This document shows positions 1-62,374 of a stretch of 63,023 nucleotides of DNA, piece by piece. The stretch covers positions 1-63,023 of the forward strand of contig CAIMTJ010000047.1 in assembly GCA_903844385.1 (NCBI GenBank). Reading direction: 5' to 3'. Made by a program: the position numbers and the translations under genes. Numbering within the stretch: the stretch's first letter is position 1; every line of letters starts with the position of its first letter. This DNA is from an uncultured Burkholderiales bacterium (GTDB taxonomy: Bacteria > Pseudomonadota > Gammaproteobacteria > Burkholderiales > Burkholderiaceae_C). The notes beneath the pieces were generated by a model that was given only the letters and a program-made list of their open reading frames with translations, had not been told where the DNA came from and ran no database searches.

Positions 1-648
1 CCTGAGCATTTGCTGCAGTTTGCGGTGATGGGCTCGGCCTTGGTGTCGGTGCTGCAAAATAAGCCCAACCCGAGCGTGGGGTTGCTCAACATTGGCGAGG
101 AGGTCATCAAAGCCAACGAGATGATCAAAAAAACCGCAGAGTTGCTGCGTGCCGCGTCTCAAGCGGGCGATTTGAATTTTGTCGGCAACGTTGAAGGCAA
201 TGATATTTTTAAAGGCACGACGGACATTGTGGTGTGCGATGGTTTTGTGGGCAATGTGGCCCTCAAGACCTGTGAAGGCCTGGCCGCCATGGTCAGCAGC
301 CTCTTGAAACAAGGCTTTGAGAAAAACATCTTCACTCGCTTGGCTTACCTGGTGAGCGCTCCCGTGCTCTCGGGCTTTAAGCAGCGGGTGGATCATCGCC
401 GGCACAATGGTGCGGCGCTCTTGGGGCTGCAAGGCTTGGTGTTCAAGAGCCATGGCTCGGCCGATGCCTTGGCGTTTGAGACGGCTTTGAATCGTGCTTA
501 TGAAGCGGCTGAGCACGGCTTACTCGCCCGAGTTCACGAGCGCATTGCGCATGCATTGCCGCTCTTACAGTCGTTTGCCGAGAGTGATTTGAGTCGCACC
601 TCACCTGTGGCTGAGTCCTTGGTGCCTCATGACATGGGGGCGGCATGA
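1..648 (+). CDS. plsX: Phosphate acyltransferase PlsX (5' end outside window)
   Basis: C-terminal part of PlsX, which makes acyl-phosphate from acyl-ACP for phospholipid synthesis at the inner face of the membrane. The reading frame is open from base 1, so the start lies upstream and only 215 residues are present. Visible family features are the stretch MGSAL..VLQ, then [12 protein letters not shown], the GNVEGNDIF segment and the [14 protein letters not shown] segment near the middle. The stop codon overlaps the fabH start as ATGA, so the two are translationally coupled in the usual plsX-fabH-fabD-fabG-acpP-fabF order. Identification is firm; only the truncation by the window edge is notable. 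Confidence 0.95.
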
Positions 649-54737: not shown

Positions 54738-56000
54738 ATGGCTGATCGCCTCAAGCGCTGGCGTGAGTCCTCGCCAGAGCTCCAAGAGCTCTTCACCCAC
54801 AAGGGTTTTGTTCGGTATTGGTGGTCCAAAATTGCTGCCGGCACCGCCTCTCAAATGCTCATGGTGGCCTTGGCTTGGCAAATGTATGACCTCACGGGCA
54901 GTGCCTGGGACTTGGGCCTGGTGGGCTTGTATCAGTTCTGTCCAGCTCTGGTCTTGACGCTTTGGGCTGGCCATGTGGCGGACCGTTTGCCGCGCGAAAA
55001 AATTGTGATGGTTTGTTGGGCGATTCAATCCCTGGTGGTTTTTGTCATCCTTTTGGCCATCTGGCAAGATGCCTTGAGTCGGTCCTTTTTATTGGGTGTG
55101 TCATTGGTGCTGGGTGTGGTGAGGTCATTTCAAAACCCGGCCCAACAAGCGTTGTTGCCCAGTCTTTTAGAAACCCATTTGTTGCCTCGAGGCATGGCCT
55201 TGAGTTCGATGGGTTATCAAGCGAGCGTGGTGGCAGGACCCGCCTTGGGCGGTTTACTCTATGCAGTGCATGCCAATGCGGTCTATGGTTTGTGCTTGCT
55301 GCTGTATGCGCTCTCGAGTCTTTGGTTCCTGGGCTTAACCACCCAACCCGTTCATCGCGAGCAAGAAGTGGCCAGCCTCGAGTCGGTCTTGGCTGGGGTG
55401 GTCTATGTTTGGCGGGAAAAAATCATTTTGGGGTCGGTGTCTTTGGATTTGTTCGCCGTTTTGCTGGGCGGCGCCACAGCGCTTTTGCCCATATACGCCA
55501 AGGATATTTTTCACACTGGACCTTGGGGTTTGGGTTTGCTCAGAGCCGCTCCAGCGTTTGGTGCCATTGCGGTGTCGCTGTTTTTGACGCGGTGGCCACT
55601 CACCAGGCATGTGGGCCGAGTGCTGCTCGCATCGGTGGGCGTCTTTGGTGTGAGTATCATGGTCTTTGCCGTCTCTGAGGTGTTTGTTCTCTCCTTTGTT
55701 GCCCTCATGGTCAGTGGGGCTGCAGACATGGTGAGTGTGGTGATTCGTCAAACCCTGGTTCAAATTGACACGCCGCCCGACATGCGCGGACGCGTGAGCG
55801 CCGTCAACATGGTCTTTATTGGGGCGAGCAATCAATTGGGGGAATTCGAGTCTGGGGCCACGGCAGCTTGGTTTGGCCCGATTGCCGCGACCTTCATTGG
55901 CGGTTTGGGCACCTTGCTGGTGGCGGTGTCATGGGGGTATTTGTTCAAGTCGCTCCTGCAGCGCGACCGCTTGAGCGATCAAGTACAAACGCCGAACTAA
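54738..56000 (+). CDS. MFS transporter, EntS-like exporter family
   Basis: 420 residues from ATG 54738. Twelve predicted helices. Motif A-like GHVADRLPREK follows helix 2, and VRSFQNPAQQALLPSL and the C-terminal MRGRVSAVNMVFIGASNQLGE are characteristic of the MFS_3/EntS group. Substrate unknown; no siderophore gene is nearby. The end overlaps the convergent ureD by 4 bases. Confidence 0.88.
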   Translation: MADRLKRWRESSPELQELFTHKGFVRYWWSKIAAGTASQMLMVALAWQMYDLTGSAWDLGLVGLYQFCPALVLTLWAGHVADRLPREKIVMVCWAIQSLVVFVILLAIWQDALSRSFLLGVSLVLGVVRSFQNPAQQALLPSLLETHLLPRGMALSSMGYQASVVAGPALGGLLYAVHANAVYGLCLLLYALSSLWFLGLTTQPVHREQEVASLESVLAGVVYVWREKIILGSVSLDLFAVLLGGATALLPIYAKDIFHTGPWGLGLLRAAPAFGAIAVSLFLTRWPLTRHVGRVLLASVGVFGVSIMVFAVSEVFVLSFVALMVSGAADMVSVVIRQTLVQIDTPPDMRGRVSAVNMVFIGASNQLGEFESGATAAWFGPIAATFIGGLGTLLVAVSWGYLFKSLLQRDRLSDQVQTPN

Positions 56001-57007
56001 GAAGACCAAATTCTCGGTGGGGTGTGGGCCAGGCCCCAAAGATCACGTCGCAGTAGGCCCCAAGCCGCTTTTAGCAGCTGCATGCTCGGTTCGACCAAAT
56101 CGCTGAGCACTCTGAGGACCACCACTTGTGGATGGACAGCCGTGACGCCTGCGACCAAATGGGCGGATCCCTCGGGCCTCATTTGCGCAATCAGTCCACG
56201 AATGCCTTCCAAGGCTCGAACTTTGAAATGGGTGGGCCAAGCATGACCTTGGGCAAAGATCAGCGATGAAATGCATCGGTGTCCCCCAAGGCCCACGGGG
56301 CTGTTGAGAAGTCGGTGGTCCAAGGCATCCAGTCTGGCCTTGTCGAGCCAAACGCCTTCAATTTCTAAGTGTTGTTCAAAGATGCCTTGTGTAAACGGCT
56401 GTTGTGCTTGCGGCAAGCCCAGTTGGGTGACATCCCAGGCGATCAACCTCGCATGCTCTTCGAGTCGGAAGACAGCTTGATTCACGCCATAGGAGCTGTT
56501 GTAAGCCAAGGCTTCCATGGGCAACCATTCAAGTTTGGCGTGGTTACTCACATGGGCAAATACTTTTTGGTGAGCCTGCAAGGCCTTGGAGCCATAAAAG
56601 CGTGTGGCGCCAGGCGTGGTGATCAAGGCGTGGCTGTGGTCTTGCAAGTGCACTTGGATGTTCAAGTGATCTCCCCCCACCAGGCCGCTGGGTGGGTGCA
56701 CCAGCACATTGTGGCAGATGGGGTCCCCCTCGGGGTACAAGCTTTTGAGAACCCTCAGCGGGCCGCTGTGGTGATGCCTGAGAACGGTGCGGTTTTGCTC
56801 AACGCTGTAGCGAAGCGAGAGGCAAGCTTGCCACAGGGCGTCTTGCCCCAAAGCGAGCTGGCCTCTCGTGTCAGGAGGCTGGGTGAGCGCCACCACGGTC
56901 TGCCGATGACTCAGGGGGGGTACTCGCCGTTTTGTTGGCTTGACTTGGCGAGACTGTGCTACCCATTTGTTGCCAAAGCGCCAACTCACTTTGAGTGAGC
57001 CGGTCAT
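55997..57007 (-). CDS. ureD: Urease accessory protein UreD (solitary; start uncertain)
   Basis: 336 residues from ATG 57007. UreD/UreH helps load nickel into urease. Family features are GPLRVLKSLYPEGDPICHNVLVHPPSGLVGGDHL-type segments split over residues about 85-120, TTPGATRFYGS, and EWLPMEALAYN. The family domain starts only about 55 residues in, so GTG 56896 or 56893 may be the true start; the longer version overlaps the channel gene by 137 bases. No ureA, B, C, E, F or G gene lies in the window, so any urease must be elsewhere. Confidence 0.85.
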   Translation of the reverse strand: MTGSLKVSWRFGNKWVAQSRQVKPTKRRVPPLSHRQTVVALTQPPDTRGQLALGQDALWQACLSLRYSVEQNRTVLRHHHSGPLRVLKSLYPEGDPICHNVLVHPPSGLVGGDHLNIQVHLQDHSHALITTPGATRFYGSKALQAHQKVFAHVSNHAKLEWLPMEALAYNSSYGVNQAVFRLEEHARLIAWDVTQLGLPQAQQPFTQGIFEQHLEIEGVWLDKARLDALDHRLLNSPVGLGGHRCISSLIFAQGHAWPTHFKVRALEGIRGLIAQMRPEGSAHLVAGVTAVHPQVVVLRVLSDLVEPSMQLLKAAWGLLRRDLWGLAHTPPRIWSS

Positions 57008-58577
57008 TGTCTTTGGCAAAAGTCTCAAAGCGAGCGTGGTCGCTCAAAATAGAGAGTTGTCGAATCTCCGAGACCAGCACTTTGAAATGCTCAACCGCAT
57101 GGGCTGGGTCCTGGGCAATTTGACTCAAGGGCAATTTGGCGCCGTGATCGATGGCATCTCGCTCTTCAATGGCCCGGTCCAAGAGTTTGTCCACCTCATG
57201 TTCGGTCAAATGCAGTCGCTCGGCTTCAGCGCGAATCATCTCGCCCTTTTCCTCGGTGATGTCGCCCTCAGCCAGCACTTTGAGCAAACTGTCTTTGAGC
57301 TCTTCGCGCTCAATGATCAACTGGTCACTAAAGGCCGAAGAGAGCAAGGCCGCAGGGATGGCAAAAATACCGATACCAATCAAGGCCAAAATGATGGTCA
57401 AAAATCGTCCGACTGGTGTGACAGGGGTGATGTCACCATAGCCCACCGAAGCCAGCGTGATCACAGCCCAATAAATGGCTTGCGGAATGTTCTCAAACTT
57501 CTCGGGTTGTGCCTCATGCTCAAAAAGGTAGCCCAAGCTGGCCGTCAAAACCACCAGCAGCATCATCACAAAGCCGGCAGCGGCCATGACGGGCCATTCG
57601 CGCACAATGACTTTGGCCAACGTGGCCGTGGCCCCTGTGTAACGGGTGAGCTTTAAGAGTCGCAGCAGACGGAAGACCCGCAAGAACCGCAAGTCAAAGA
57701 GGTGGTGTAAAAACACCTCTAAGAAAAAGGGCAGCACGGCCAAGAAATCAATGATGGATCCTGTGGTCTTGGCTTGTTTGAGTCGACCCACCAAAAAGTG
57801 TTGAAACCCAGGCTCTTCCACGCAACAGTAAAGTCGCATGAAGTATTCCAACGTGAAGATGGTCACTGCCACCGTGTCCAAGATGATGAACTCGGTGTTC
57901 AAAATATAGTGAACGCTTTGCACCGATTCGAACACCACGGCAATGACGGAGATGACCACCCAGACCACGATGAAATTGTCAAACAGACCGTGCAATGCAC
58001 CACCGTACTCGGAGTTGTAGACCAAGGCGTGCAATTTTTGCCGGAAGGTACGCCCCTCATTGAGTATCTTAAATTCAGTGATGGCTGGCAGTAAGACTCT
58101 AAAGAGCTTGAGCATTCGCAAAAGCCGCAAGAACCGCAACACACGCAGATCAATGGCCAAAAATGATTGGAAATAAAACGGCGCAACCGCAAAGAAGTCA
58201 ATCAGCGCAAAGGGGCTAAAAAGGTAGCGCAATCGAGGATATTTGTTCTTGGCGAATTCCTCATCTTCTGGGGCCAAGTAAAACCGCAAGAAATACTCAA
58301 TCGTGAAGATCGTGACTGAAAACACATCAAAAGCATGAAACAGCTCTTTGTTGGGTTCAAAAACTTGCGGTACATGCTCAAAGAGCATGGCAAACAAGTT
58401 GGTCAATATCAGCAGACCAATCCAGTTGTCCACCTCTTTGTGGTAATTGGTCTCATAGTGGGGGTTGAGCAGCCAGTCATAGAGCTGTTTTCTGATCCCC
58501 TGGCCTGAAGGAATCACTTCCTCCAAGACGCTTTTTTTGCCGTGCAGCAACGCTCGCATGTGATCGATGTTGTCCAT
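56871..58577 (-). CDS. Voltage-gated K+ channel with two tandem voltage-sensor domains
   Basis: 568 residues. First voltage sensor, about 50-165: S1 NWIGLLILTNLFAML; S3 region ALIDFFAVAPF; S4 with Arg145, 148, 151, 154, Lys157 and Arg160. Second, about 195-315: VTIFTLEYFMRLY (238-250) closely repeats VTIFTIEYFLRFY (88-100); S4 with Arg297, 300, 303, 306, Lys309 and Arg312. Pore: S5 about 328-350, selectivity filter SVGYGD (377-382), S6 about 390-415. A charged helical cytoplasmic tail ends at 568. Normal Kv subunits have one sensor. AAGGA precedes the ATG. It follows the gene at 58590 by 12 bases. Potassium selectivity is inferred from the filter. Confidence 0.93.
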   Translation of the reverse strand: MDNIDHMRALLHGKKSVLEEVIPSGQGIRKQLYDWLLNPHYETNYHKEVDNWIGLLILTNLFAMLFEHVPQVFEPNKELFHAFDVFSVTIFTIEYFLRFYLAPEDEEFAKNKYPRLRYLFSPFALIDFFAVAPFYFQSFLAIDLRVLRFLRLLRMLKLFRVLLPAITEFKILNEGRTFRQKLHALVYNSEYGGALHGLFDNFIVVWVVISVIAVVFESVQSVHYILNTEFIILDTVAVTIFTLEYFMRLYCCVEEPGFQHFLVGRLKQAKTTGSIIDFLAVLPFFLEVFLHHLFDLRFLRVFRLLRLLKLTRYTGATATLAKVIVREWPVMAAAGFVMMLLVVLTASLGYLFEHEAQPEKFENIPQAIYWAVITLASVGYGDITPVTPVGRFLTIILALIGIGIFAIPAALLSSAFSDQLIIEREELKDSLLKVLAEGDITEEKGEMIRAEAERLHLTEHEVDKLLDRAIEERDAIDHGAKLPLSQIAQDPAHAVEHFKVLVSEIRQLSILSDHARFETFAKDNDRLTQSELALWQQMGSTVSPSQANKTASTPPESSADRGGAHPAS

Positions 58578-59599: not shown

Positions 59600-60370
59600 T
59601 CAGCGGTTTTGTGAGCCCTGGTGGGCCCAAGCGGTGGTGTGTTTTTCAACGTAATTGAACAGTTCGTACATGAACATGGCCATCGCGCCCACCACCACCA
59701 AGCCAGCAAAAGCCAGGCCCATGCGCATGGACGACCCGGCTGAAATGAGCAAATACCCAATACCCTCATTGGCGGCCGTCATCTCCGAGACCGTGGTGCC
59801 CACAAATGCCAAGGTGATGGCCACTTTCAAGGATCCGTAAAAGTAGGGCAATGAACGGGGCAACCCCACCTTGATCAAGACGTCCCAGCGCTTGGCGCCA
59901 AGCACCCTCAGTACATCTTCGAGTTCGGGCTCGAGAGTGGCCAAACCGGTGGCAATGTTGACCATGATAGGAAAAAAGCTGATCAAAAAAGCGGTCAAAA
60001 TCGCTGGACCCACACCAATACCGAACCAGACCACCAAAATCGGGACAAAGGCCGCTTTGGGCAAGGCATTGAAGGCGGTCATCAAGGGATAGACGGCGGT
60101 ATAGGCCAAGCGCGAGCTGCCAATTAAAAATCCCAATAAAACCCCCACCACAATCGCCAAGCCAAAACCTGCCATGGTGACCCAATAGGTTCTCCAGGCG
60201 TGGGCGGCAATGATGGCGCTGTACTGCAAGAGCTCTTGGGCGATTTTGAGGGGACTGGGAAAAATAAATTCCGACACCGAGAACGCACTGCACACCACTT
60301 GCCACAGCAGCAAGGTGAAGATCAGTAATATCCAAGGTGAACTGGCTTCGAGCTTTTTAGACCATTTCAT
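59600..60370 (-). CDS. ABC transporter permease, NitT/TauT type
   Basis: 256 residues from ATG 60370; TTG 60418, overlapping the ATPase stop, is an alternative. Six helices. The cytoplasmic EAA loop reads DVLRVLGAKRWDVLIKVGLPRSLPY in pieces near 165-190 and contacts the ATPase. Downstream of the ATPase and binding-protein genes in one operon. Confidence 0.92.
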   Translation of the reverse strand: MKWSKKLEASSPWILLIFTLLLWQVVCSAFSVSEFIFPSPLKIAQELLQYSAIIAAHAWRTYWVTMAGFGLAIVVGVLLGFLIGSSRLAYTAVYPLMTAFNALPKAAFVPILVVWFGIGVGPAILTAFLISFFPIMVNIATGLATLEPELEDVLRVLGAKRWDVLIKVGLPRSLPYFYGSLKVAITLAFVGTTVSEMTAANEGIGYLLISAGSSMRMGLAFAGLVVVGAMAMFMYELFNYVEKHTTAWAHQGSQNR

Positions 60371-60414
60371 AGGGATGTCTTTGAGGTTGGGCGGTGCAGT
60401 GTAAGAAAAGGCCC

Positions 60415-61266
60415 TCAAGCCACGGCAGGGGGAGCGCTGTTGGGCTTTGTCGTTGCGACCCCTTGAGCGCCACGAAGGGCGCCGATGTGACTTCTCAACT
60501 CGTGCACCACGTTGGCGAATTCACTGGTGTAGGTGAGTTCCAAGTCACGCGGCCTTGGCAGGTCAATATCGCGCTTGACAATGAAGCGTCCTGGGCTTTT
60601 TGACATCACGTAGACGGTGTCGGCCAAAAATACCGATTCACGCAGATCATGGGTGACCAGTATCACATTGAAGCGCTGCTCAGTCCACAAGTCGCGCAAA
60701 ATGCACCACAACTCTTCTCGAGTGAAGGCATCCAGTGCGCCAAACGGTTCATCCAACAGCAGCATTTGGGGCTCATGAATCAAGGCGCGACAAATGCTCG
60801 CGCGTTGCTGCATGCCGCCTGAGAGCTGCCATGGGAATTGCCGCTCATAGCCACCCAAGCCCACTCTTTTTAAAAGCTCAATGGCGCGGTGCTCGTACTC
60901 GGCTTTTTTGGCCTTGAATTGGGAGCGATGCGGCTCCACGATCTCCAAGGGCAATAAAACGTTGTCCAGTGTGGTCCGCCACGGCAGCAAGGACGGCGCT
61001 TGAAACGCCATGCCACTGATTTTGAGCGGTCCGGTGACTTCTTCTCCATTGACTCGAATCTGACCACTTGTCGGGCGTCTGAGCCCGGTGGTGAGTTTCA
61101 TGAAGGTGGATTTACCGCAACCGGAGGGTCCCACAATGGCAATGAATTCGCCTCTTTGAATCTCTAAATTAATGTCTTCAACCGCAAACTGTTGCTGAGC
61201 CAACAACTCATCGTTGTACGCCAACCAAACGTTGTTGAATTCAACAAAGGGTTTAGAGGATGACAT
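60415..61266 (-). CDS. ABC transporter ATP-binding protein, NitT/TauT type
   Basis: 283 residues. Walker A GPSGCGKST, Q-loop FQAPSLLPWRT, signature LSGGMQQR, Walker B MLLLDEPFGALD and the switch His in THDL are complete. Its ATG shares a base with the stop of the binding-protein gene (TAATG), indicating tight coupling. Confidence 0.95.
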   Translation of the reverse strand: MSSSKPFVEFNNVWLAYNDELLAQQQFAVEDINLEIQRGEFIAIVGPSGCGKSTFMKLTTGLRRPTSGQIRVNGEEVTGPLKISGMAFQAPSLLPWRTTLDNVLLPLEIVEPHRSQFKAKKAEYEHRAIELLKRVGLGGYERQFPWQLSGGMQQRASICRALIHEPQMLLLDEPFGALDAFTREELWCILRDLWTEQRFNVILVTHDLRESVFLADTVYVMSKSPGRFIVKRDIDLPRPRDLELTYTSEFANVVHELRSHIGALRGAQGVATTKPNSAPPAVA

Positions 61267-62300
61267 TATTTCTTGGACAAGACGTTGAGCTCCTTTGCGC
61301 TAGGCAAGAAGGAGGCGTTCCAAAGAAGATCGGCGTTGACGCGGGTTTTGGTGTTGAAGGCGTCTGAGACCTGGCTGGCCATCAACGACAAGCGTGGGCC
61401 ATTGACTTGACCAAAGCCTTCGCTGCGGGCATCGGGGCTATTGACCACGGTGTCCAAACACAGCTTTAAGCGACGGATCTCCAAATCAACATCAATGATG
61501 CCGTCACGCGCTTTGACGCTTTGGATGGCTTCTGCGGGGTTGGCCAAGACGTCTTTCATGCCACGGCTGAAGGCGCGCAAAAAAGCACGAACAGCTTCTG
61601 GGTTTTCTTTCAAAATTTTGGGAGAAGCAATGATGGCATTTCCATACAACTTCACGCCGTAATCGGGGTATTGCAACACCACCACATCGGCGGCTTTGAC
61701 GCCGCGCGATTCAATATTGAGCAATGAGGTGAAAGTAAAGCCTGTGATGGCATCGAGGTCTCCCCTCACCAGCATGGTCTCGCGCAAGGTCGGATCCATG
61801 GCCGTCCACGTGACGTTGGAGATGTTGTTGGCTTTGGCAAAGATGGGGAAGGCCCGTCGTCCTGCATCAAAGACTGGAGCGCCGAGTTTTTTGCCGTTCA
61901 AGTCGGCTGGGGTTTTGATACCAGACTTCTTCAGCGCCATCACAGACGCTGGGGTGTTGTTGTACACCATCATGATGGCCACGGGTTTATTGGGCGCATC
62001 GGGGTTGTTGGCCGCAAACTCCATGAGGGAGGCCAAGTCTGCAAAGCCCATATCATAGGATCCAGAGGCCACTCGGGTGACGGTTCCTCCAGAGCCGTTG
62101 CCCGCATCGACGGTGACGTCCAATTTCTCTGCTTTGTAATAACCCTTGGTCTCCGGCACCAAGAACAAAGCCGCCGGGCCTTCAAAGCGCCAGTCGAGTT
62201 GAAATTTCAATGGGGTGTTTTGTGCCATGGCGATGCCGGTACTCAAGCCCAAGGCCAAGACAAGACCATTTTTGATCTTGTTTACAGAATGTTTCATCAT
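61266..62300 (-). CDS. ABC transporter substrate-binding protein, NMT1/THI5-like
   Basis: 344 residues from ATG 62300, five bases after GGAGA; ATG 62297 is equally near. A signal peptide (about 1-30, ending GIAMAQ) precedes FQLDWRFEGP and YYKAEKLDVTVDAGNGSGG, the family's ligand-binding start. Relatives bind pyrimidines, taurine or aromatic nitrogen compounds. The neighbouring amidohydrolase and nitrogen-control sites suggest a nitrogenous ligand such as a hydantoin, pyrimidine or ureide; this is inference. Confidence 0.9.
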   Translation of the reverse strand: MMKHSVNKIKNGLVLALGLSTGIAMAQNTPLKFQLDWRFEGPAALFLVPETKGYYKAEKLDVTVDAGNGSGGTVTRVASGSYDMGFADLASLMEFAANNPDAPNKPVAIMMVYNNTPASVMALKKSGIKTPADLNGKKLGAPVFDAGRRAFPIFAKANNISNVTWTAMDPTLRETMLVRGDLDAITGFTFTSLLNIESRGVKAADVVVLQYPDYGVKLYGNAIIASPKILKENPEAVRAFLRAFSRGMKDVLANPAEAIQSVKARDGIIDVDLEIRRLKLCLDTVVNSPDARSEGFGQVNGPRLSLMASQVSDAFNTKTRVNADLLWNASFLPSAKELNVLSKK

Positions 62301-62374
62301 CAAGTTCTCCAAATTGAATGTAATGGGTTATAGCAATAACAGTGCCCATGAAAGACCATTGTAGACAATAAATG

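Follow-up and report, generated by a model that had tools for sequence, protein, structure and literature searches.

Organization of the locus

The window is the whole 63,023-nucleotide stretch of contig CAIMTJ010000047.1 from an uncultured Burkholderiales bacterium. On its minus strand lies a gene for a K+ channel protein with two voltage sensors (VSD1 and VSD2), and immediately upstream of it is a smaller gene, which we call the partner, for a candidate auxiliary subunit (Table 1). The partner stop codon and the channel ATG are 12 bases apart, and the motif TAAGGA spans the stop. The two-gene cassette is flanked by ureD (55997-57028), the longest frame of which overlaps the 3' end of the channel gene, and by an NMT1-type ABC transporter (59600-62312). 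The partner gene is an addition to the first-pass annotation of this DNA, which did not mention it.

Table 1. Features of the double-sensor channel cassette, with positions in the window and residues of the encoded proteins.
Feature	Residues	Position	Strand	Basis
Double-sensor K+ channel gene	568 aa	56871..58577	-	Open reading frame with ATG start; Pfam; 64 full-length relatives
VSD1	46-172	58062..58442	-	AlphaFold helices; conservation; Foldseek to KCNQ/Kv4/NavAb
VSD1 helices	S1 46-67, S2 77-104, S3 122-139, S4 144-172			AlphaFold
VSD1 S4 charges	145-160	58098..58145	-	R145 R148 R151 R154 K157 R160
Inter-sensor linker (helix 178-186)	173-192	58002..58061	-	Model; conservation
VSD2	193-312	57642..58001	-	Pfam; conservation; model
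VSD2 S4 charges	297-312	57642..57689	-	R297 R300 R303 R306 K309 R312
Pore (S5, pore helix, filter, S6)	315-420	57318..57635	-	Pfam; model
Selectivity filter TLASVGYGD	374-382	57432..57458	-	Conservation
Cytosolic tail, modeled as helical, with conservation up to about residue 540	421-568	56874..57317	-	Conservation; AlphaFold
Candidate auxiliary subunit (partner)	257 aa	58590..59363	-	Linkage to double-sensor channels; single transmembrane segment

Pfam recognized Ion_trans in two stretches of the channel protein and the pore domain Ion_trans_2 in one. The C-terminal matches (Ion_trans at residues 198-418, Ion_trans_2 at 339-416) describe one sensor-and-pore unit, in which S1-S4 is joined to S5-P-S6. 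The whole-genome scan likewise gave separate Ion_trans matches at 57321-57986 and 58092-58430, and the latter spans positions 5-112 of the 241 in the model only, that is, the part without the pore. Local alignment of residues 1-190 with residues 191-340 scored 195, compared with a mean of 33 (s.d. 5.6) and a maximum of 53 in 500 shuffles, which rules out a chance repeat as the cause of the likeness between the sensors. The central claim of the first-pass annotation, two S1-S4 units followed by one pore, is thus confirmed by Pfam, by the internal alignment, by conservation and by structure prediction. Two of its finer details also held: the six positive charges in each S4 were found residue by residue, and the S2 motifs, which begin at residues 88 and 238, are exactly 150 residues apart. 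Taken together, the sequence and the predicted structure support a subunit of the form sensor-sensor-pore with a K+ filter.

Conservation of the two sensors

Relatives were collected by a tblastn scan of genome contigs with short peptides of the query, which yielded 74 loci and is biased to near kin because of the peptides used. We defined a full-length double-sensor channel (hereafter, double) as a frame of more than 500 aa that aligns from before query residue 45 to beyond residue 530. By that rule there were 64 doubles among the contig loci, and these gave 65 alignment rows with the window channel. Two subsets served for the searches and models described below, A1 with 39 of the 64 relatives and A2 with 38, each plus the window channel (40 rows in A1).

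The residues on which voltage sensing depends are kept in both sensors. In VSD1, R148, R151, R154, K157 and R160 of S4 were found in all 65 rows and R145 in 62 (the other three have gaps), and E67, F91, E94, R98 and D127 were each present in 65/65. In VSD2, all six S4 charges together with E217, F241, E244 and D277 were invariant, and R248 was kept in 64/65. The aromatic/acid pair of S2 and the Asp of S3 are therefore kept in both sensors of the 65 aligned proteins; we take the pairs F91/F241, E94/E244 and D127/D277 to correspond to F290, E293 and D316 in Shaker numbering. Every position of the filter was invariant (65/65). The mean information per column was highest in the pore (3.83 bits), followed by VSD2 (3.47), VSD1 (3.37), the linker (3.20), the tail (2.62) and the N-terminus (2.48).

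We also compared dN/dS values against three near relatives (L006, L007 and L008, in that order). These were 0.042, 0.040 and 0.023 for VSD1, 0.013, 0.039 and 0 for VSD2, and 0.014, 0.010 and 0.031 for the pore; with two more distant relatives, four of the eight values were saturated, those of VSD1 among them. Measured against the three near relatives, VSD1 shows strong purifying selection, and because its values are close to those of VSD2 and the pore, its sensing parts are kept and not the fold alone. At the level of sequence, the conservation of VSD1 is what one would expect of a working sensor. Conservation alone is unable to separate a gating role of VSD1 from a strict assembly role.

Predicted structure and relation to known channels

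The AlphaFold model of the full channel, calculated from a 40-row alignment, was of moderate confidence (mean pLDDT 73, pTM 0.57). It shows four helices in VSD1, the short helix at residues 178-186, four helices in VSD2, S5, the pore helix, and S6 extending to residue 436, and its filter residues 379-382 have pLDDT below 50. In a Foldseek search with this model, KCNQ and Kv4 structures ranked first, with TM-scores by query of 0.21-0.32 among the best 50. VSD1 modeled alone (residues 1-190, 39 rows) again formed four helices, with a mean pLDDT of 80 and block means of 76-93 across residues 41-180; the outcome that the first-pass annotation had named as refuting, residues 50-165 failing to make a four-helix sensor, was thus not seen. 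Foldseek matched this model to KCNQ1, Kv4 and, lower, NavAb (probability 1.00, TM-score by query 0.39-0.59), and one PDB match only passed an E value of 0.001.

By sequence, the best PDB matches of the channel were KCNQ5, KCNQ4, KCNQ2 and KCNQ3, then Kv1.2-Kv2.1 and Kv4. Like the Kv and KCNQ channels (PF00520, GYGD filter), VSD2 and the pore form a full Kv unit; unlike them, the protein carries a whole extra sensor in front of that unit. To our knowledge, each subunit of a Kv or KCNQ channel carries a single sensor. Since two complete sensors are present in each subunit, the double is a variant of the Kv plan and no ordinary member of it. Two-pore channels (TPC) also carry two sensors in one chain, with sensor and pore repeated, and we therefore considered this reading. 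However, only about 20 residues separate the sensors of the double, which leaves no room for a first pore, and neither Pfam nor AlphaFold places S5-P-S6 between residues 172 and 193; the reading was rejected. Like Hv1 and the voltage-sensing phosphatase, VSD1 is a sensor without a pore of its own directly behind it; unlike in these proteins, Pfam recognizes ion-channel domains only, and VSD1 is without the marks of Hv1.

A full-text search of CC-licensed literature returned, among the matches listed, no description of a sensor-sensor-pore channel and no earlier detailed characterization of this architecture. Because the search was confined to CC-licensed papers, such absence is no proof; having found no description, we regard the layout with its linked partner as apparently undescribed. 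We know of no voltage-gated channel in which more than one sensor is paired with one pore unit.

Distribution and origin

The relatives are mostly labeled Burkholderiales, Comamonadaceae and Limnohabitans. Other labeled hosts are Beijerinckiaceae (L067, L068, L071) and a Rhizobiales bacterium (L064), and two further contigs (L060, L070) come from a Methylococcaceae bin; several labels are names of bins and possibly wrong. The double-sensor channel is carried by some freshwater bacteria. We examined even draws of genomes from the order, the family and the phylum, with the window's own genome (G000) included in each. The profile search found doubles in 4 of 399 genomes of the order (G000, G215, G343, G369) and in 9 of 399 family genomes, with a frame-broken double in G566 in addition. 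Of 398 phylum genomes, two (G000, G343) had a double and 18 others matched over the VSD2-pore part only. When VSD1 was searched class-wide, 32 of 369 genomes matched and the window's own gene was the only double match, the remaining matches being judged single-sensor by frame length with a 671-aa frame in G1207 left out. A 683-aa frame at L125 was considered as a further double and proved to encode an ordinary channel with one sensor, the open frame simply being long. Because only the best few candidates in each genome were scored (at most 3 with A1 and 9 with A2), a double in a channel-rich genome may be missed. In the draws sampled, the double is patchy and rare. No plasmid copies of it were found at an E value of 1e-40. 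Apparent arrays of three to four sensors (tblastn spans of 2.0-2.5 kb) were resolved into a double followed by separate single-sensor frames downstream.

Such neighboring channels recur. Of the 59 doubles whose downstream sequence reaches 2 kb or more, 25 are followed by two further overlapping or abutting single-sensor frames with the filters GYGN and GWGN (for example, L049:5604-6527 and L049:6506-7468). From the pore-helix Trp to the filter, these channels are one residue shorter (25/25 each) than the doubles (65/65), and the two frames resemble the subunits of a heteromeric channel whose filter is unusual. When the GYGN protein was searched against the window's genome (88.6% complete), only the double was matched and no GYGN homologue. 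Contig C34 of this genome encodes two neighboring single-domain channels whose filter reads TLESWS (L092:103-945 and 1034-1852), presumably NaChBac-like bacterial sodium channels. Two loci (L095:3311-9466 and L105:3177-11438) hold four channel genes on the same strand, namely a double, the two odd-filter channels and a second, diverged double with no partner beside it. At L022:1667-3295 and L024:1672-3294, a frame of about 540 aa with one sensor-pore match, GYGD and a long tail lies upstream of the double cassette.

To place the sensors phylogenetically, we used a careful tree from which three long rows (L091, L102 and L096) were left out. In it, VSD1 formed one clade (100/100) and VSD2 another (100/87), and the sister of VSD2 was a group of four single-sensor channels, each some 400 aa long (99/94). 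VSD1 joined the group of VSD2 and these singles at 70/77 only, and a grouping of VSD1 with VSD2 alone gave a p-AU of 0.064. The VSD2-pore tree set the same four singles outside the doubles, placed L096 beside the double L057 (98), and gave a fifth single, the long row L091, no settled position among them. These supports fit two histories: either the duplication came before the singles diverged, which then lost VSD1, or the fusion is older. The tandem duplication proposed by the first-pass annotation is plausible, and the trees do not settle it. At L096, a close relative, the partner is followed by the linker, VSD2 and the pore, with no VSD1 match upstream; a probable loss of VSD1 is the simplest explanation. 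Because L096 retains both the partner and the VSD2-pore unit, VSD1 would be expendable in that locus, and retention of the partner would not depend on it.

The linked partner gene

The partner has a short N-terminus, one hydrophobic helix, a long variable part and a domain with conserved cysteines, of which C79, C165, C194 and C243 were each present in 69-71 of the 72 rows. The family had no match above the cut-off in Pfam or NCBIfam. A homologue lies directly upstream in 61 of the 65 doubles on genome contigs (one frame below 500 aa counted in), and in 60 of these 61 its frame ends at most 9 bases before the channel open frame or overlaps it. The four doubles without it (L014, L040, L060, L073) have fewer than 430 bases upstream and are cut by contig ends. 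Over all fetched loci, in which some genomes are repeated, the partner stands beside 74 of 81 doubles. One of the others, L085, lies at a contig edge where the last part of the partner is present, and no partner adjoins the paralogous doubles L095:3311-4927 and L105:3177-4778. All 80 partner homologues adjoin a channel frame, which proves little alone because the loci were fetched around channels. Other neighbors are less kept, with ABC-transporter genes at 30-31 loci and ureD at 23 (raw counts, cut contigs included).

Of 81 frames classed as single-sensor, six have a partner: one each in L048, L058, L066 and L096, and two in L094. Those in L048, L058, L066 and L094 were taken for broken or cut doubles. 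In three of these loci (L094:3050-4880, L058:3884-5563 and L048:4235-5590), the seeming double is broken by a frame change or a stop and its pieces are recognizable; either real decay or sequencing error may be the cause.

A partner profile (A3), built from seven rows that all stand beside doubles, was run on the 399 family genomes, which gives a test with less bias than the count over loci fetched around channels. It matched in ten, exactly those with a double (G000, G475, G573, G566, G651, G697, G710, G714, G768 and G769), the one in G566 being frame-broken. The partner in G663, the genome of L096, was missed by the seven-row profile and found by a larger local model, so that distant partners may be overlooked.

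From its linkage, we consider the partner a candidate auxiliary subunit of the channel. A review describes transmembrane auxiliary subunits that bind the sensors of K+ channels and modulate these channels (PMC10950684). The partner may be a counterpart of such sensor-binding membrane subunits, that is, of KCNE, DPP and Slo beta/gamma (PMC10950684); unlike them, it comes from bacteria, carries four conserved Cys and belongs to no Pfam or NCBIfam family above the cut-off.

Possible roles of the first sensor

The reading that we favor, and think rather probable, is that of a voltage-gated K+ channel in which four subunits would assemble around one pore, giving four pore-coupled and four outlying sensors. 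VSD2 would be an ordinary sensor coupled to the pore. VSD1 would be a second working voltage sensor outside VSD2, tied to it by the short conserved helix, and its S4 would move with voltage and shift or steepen pore opening. The upstream single-transmembrane partner would probably be an auxiliary subunit in contact with the channel. The completeness of both sensors, the low dN/dS of VSD1, its four-helix fold when modeled alone, the invariant filter, the conserved linker and the linkage of the partner argue for this reading. The moderate model of the full channel, its poor superposition on PDB structures, the single PDB match of VSD1 that passes an E value of 0.001, the absence of VSD1 from L096 and the paralogous doubles without an adjacent partner argue against it.

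Alternatively, VSD1 may mainly be a docking or assembly module for the partner or for neighboring subunits, its charges stabilizing the fold. That the partner is so closely linked to doubles is consistent with this role, as is the binding of sensors by transmembrane auxiliary subunits in known K+ channels (PMC10950684). However, the full S4 ladder, the charge-transfer residues and the S3 Asp are more than docking requires, the partner persists at L096 although VSD1 is absent, and VSD1 is present in paralogous doubles that have no partner next to them; we judge this role unlikely, although it deserves consideration. Much less can be said for VSD1 as a decaying duplicate without function. Its probable loss at least once, in L096, fits decay, but the sensor residues are kept in 65 aligned doubles and the dN/dS of 0.02-0.04 against the three near relatives contradicts it, so that we regard it as highly improbable.

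The first-pass annotation had also offered a proton pathway like that of Hv1; as a complete sensor, VSD1 would suit such a pathway, or a gating-pore one, joined to a K+ channel. Stand-alone voltage sensors can conduct protons. The marks of Hv1 are an Asp in the middle of S1, a Trp in S4 and fewer S4 charges. Across the 65 rows, VSD1 is free of acids in S1 columns 51-66 and of Trp in S4 columns 142-165, and its S4 ladder is full. The only acids in columns 51-73 are E67 (65 rows), D70 (1 row) and E71 (1 row). Asn60, which we take to occupy the place of the Hv1 S1 Asp, seven residues before the conserved Glu, is present in 65/65 rows; Asn at this site is also found in several single-sensor channels. 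When the VSD1 profile was compared with the PDB, the best 60 of 117 matches were Kv, Nav and Cav chains, with no Hv1 among them. Because VSD1 is without these marks, the proton pathway is disfavored, and we consider it very unlikely.

The reading of VSD1 as a modulating second sensor can be carried further, although tentatively. The channel could be an eight-sensor voltage integrator in two layers, in which the inner four sensors open the pore and the outer four set or veto the opening; a KCNE-like partner might read or clamp the outer ring, and its Cys-rich domain could sense the periplasm. Such an integrator would be unlike any channel known to us.

A natural second sensor would offer a test of how sensors add, whether by more gating charge, by a voltage window or by cross-talk in the plane of the membrane. 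If the partner binds, it would represent in bacteria what auxiliary subunits are to animal K+ channels, in a system small enough for structural work, and L096, in which VSD1 is apparently lost and the partner kept, would serve as a natural control.
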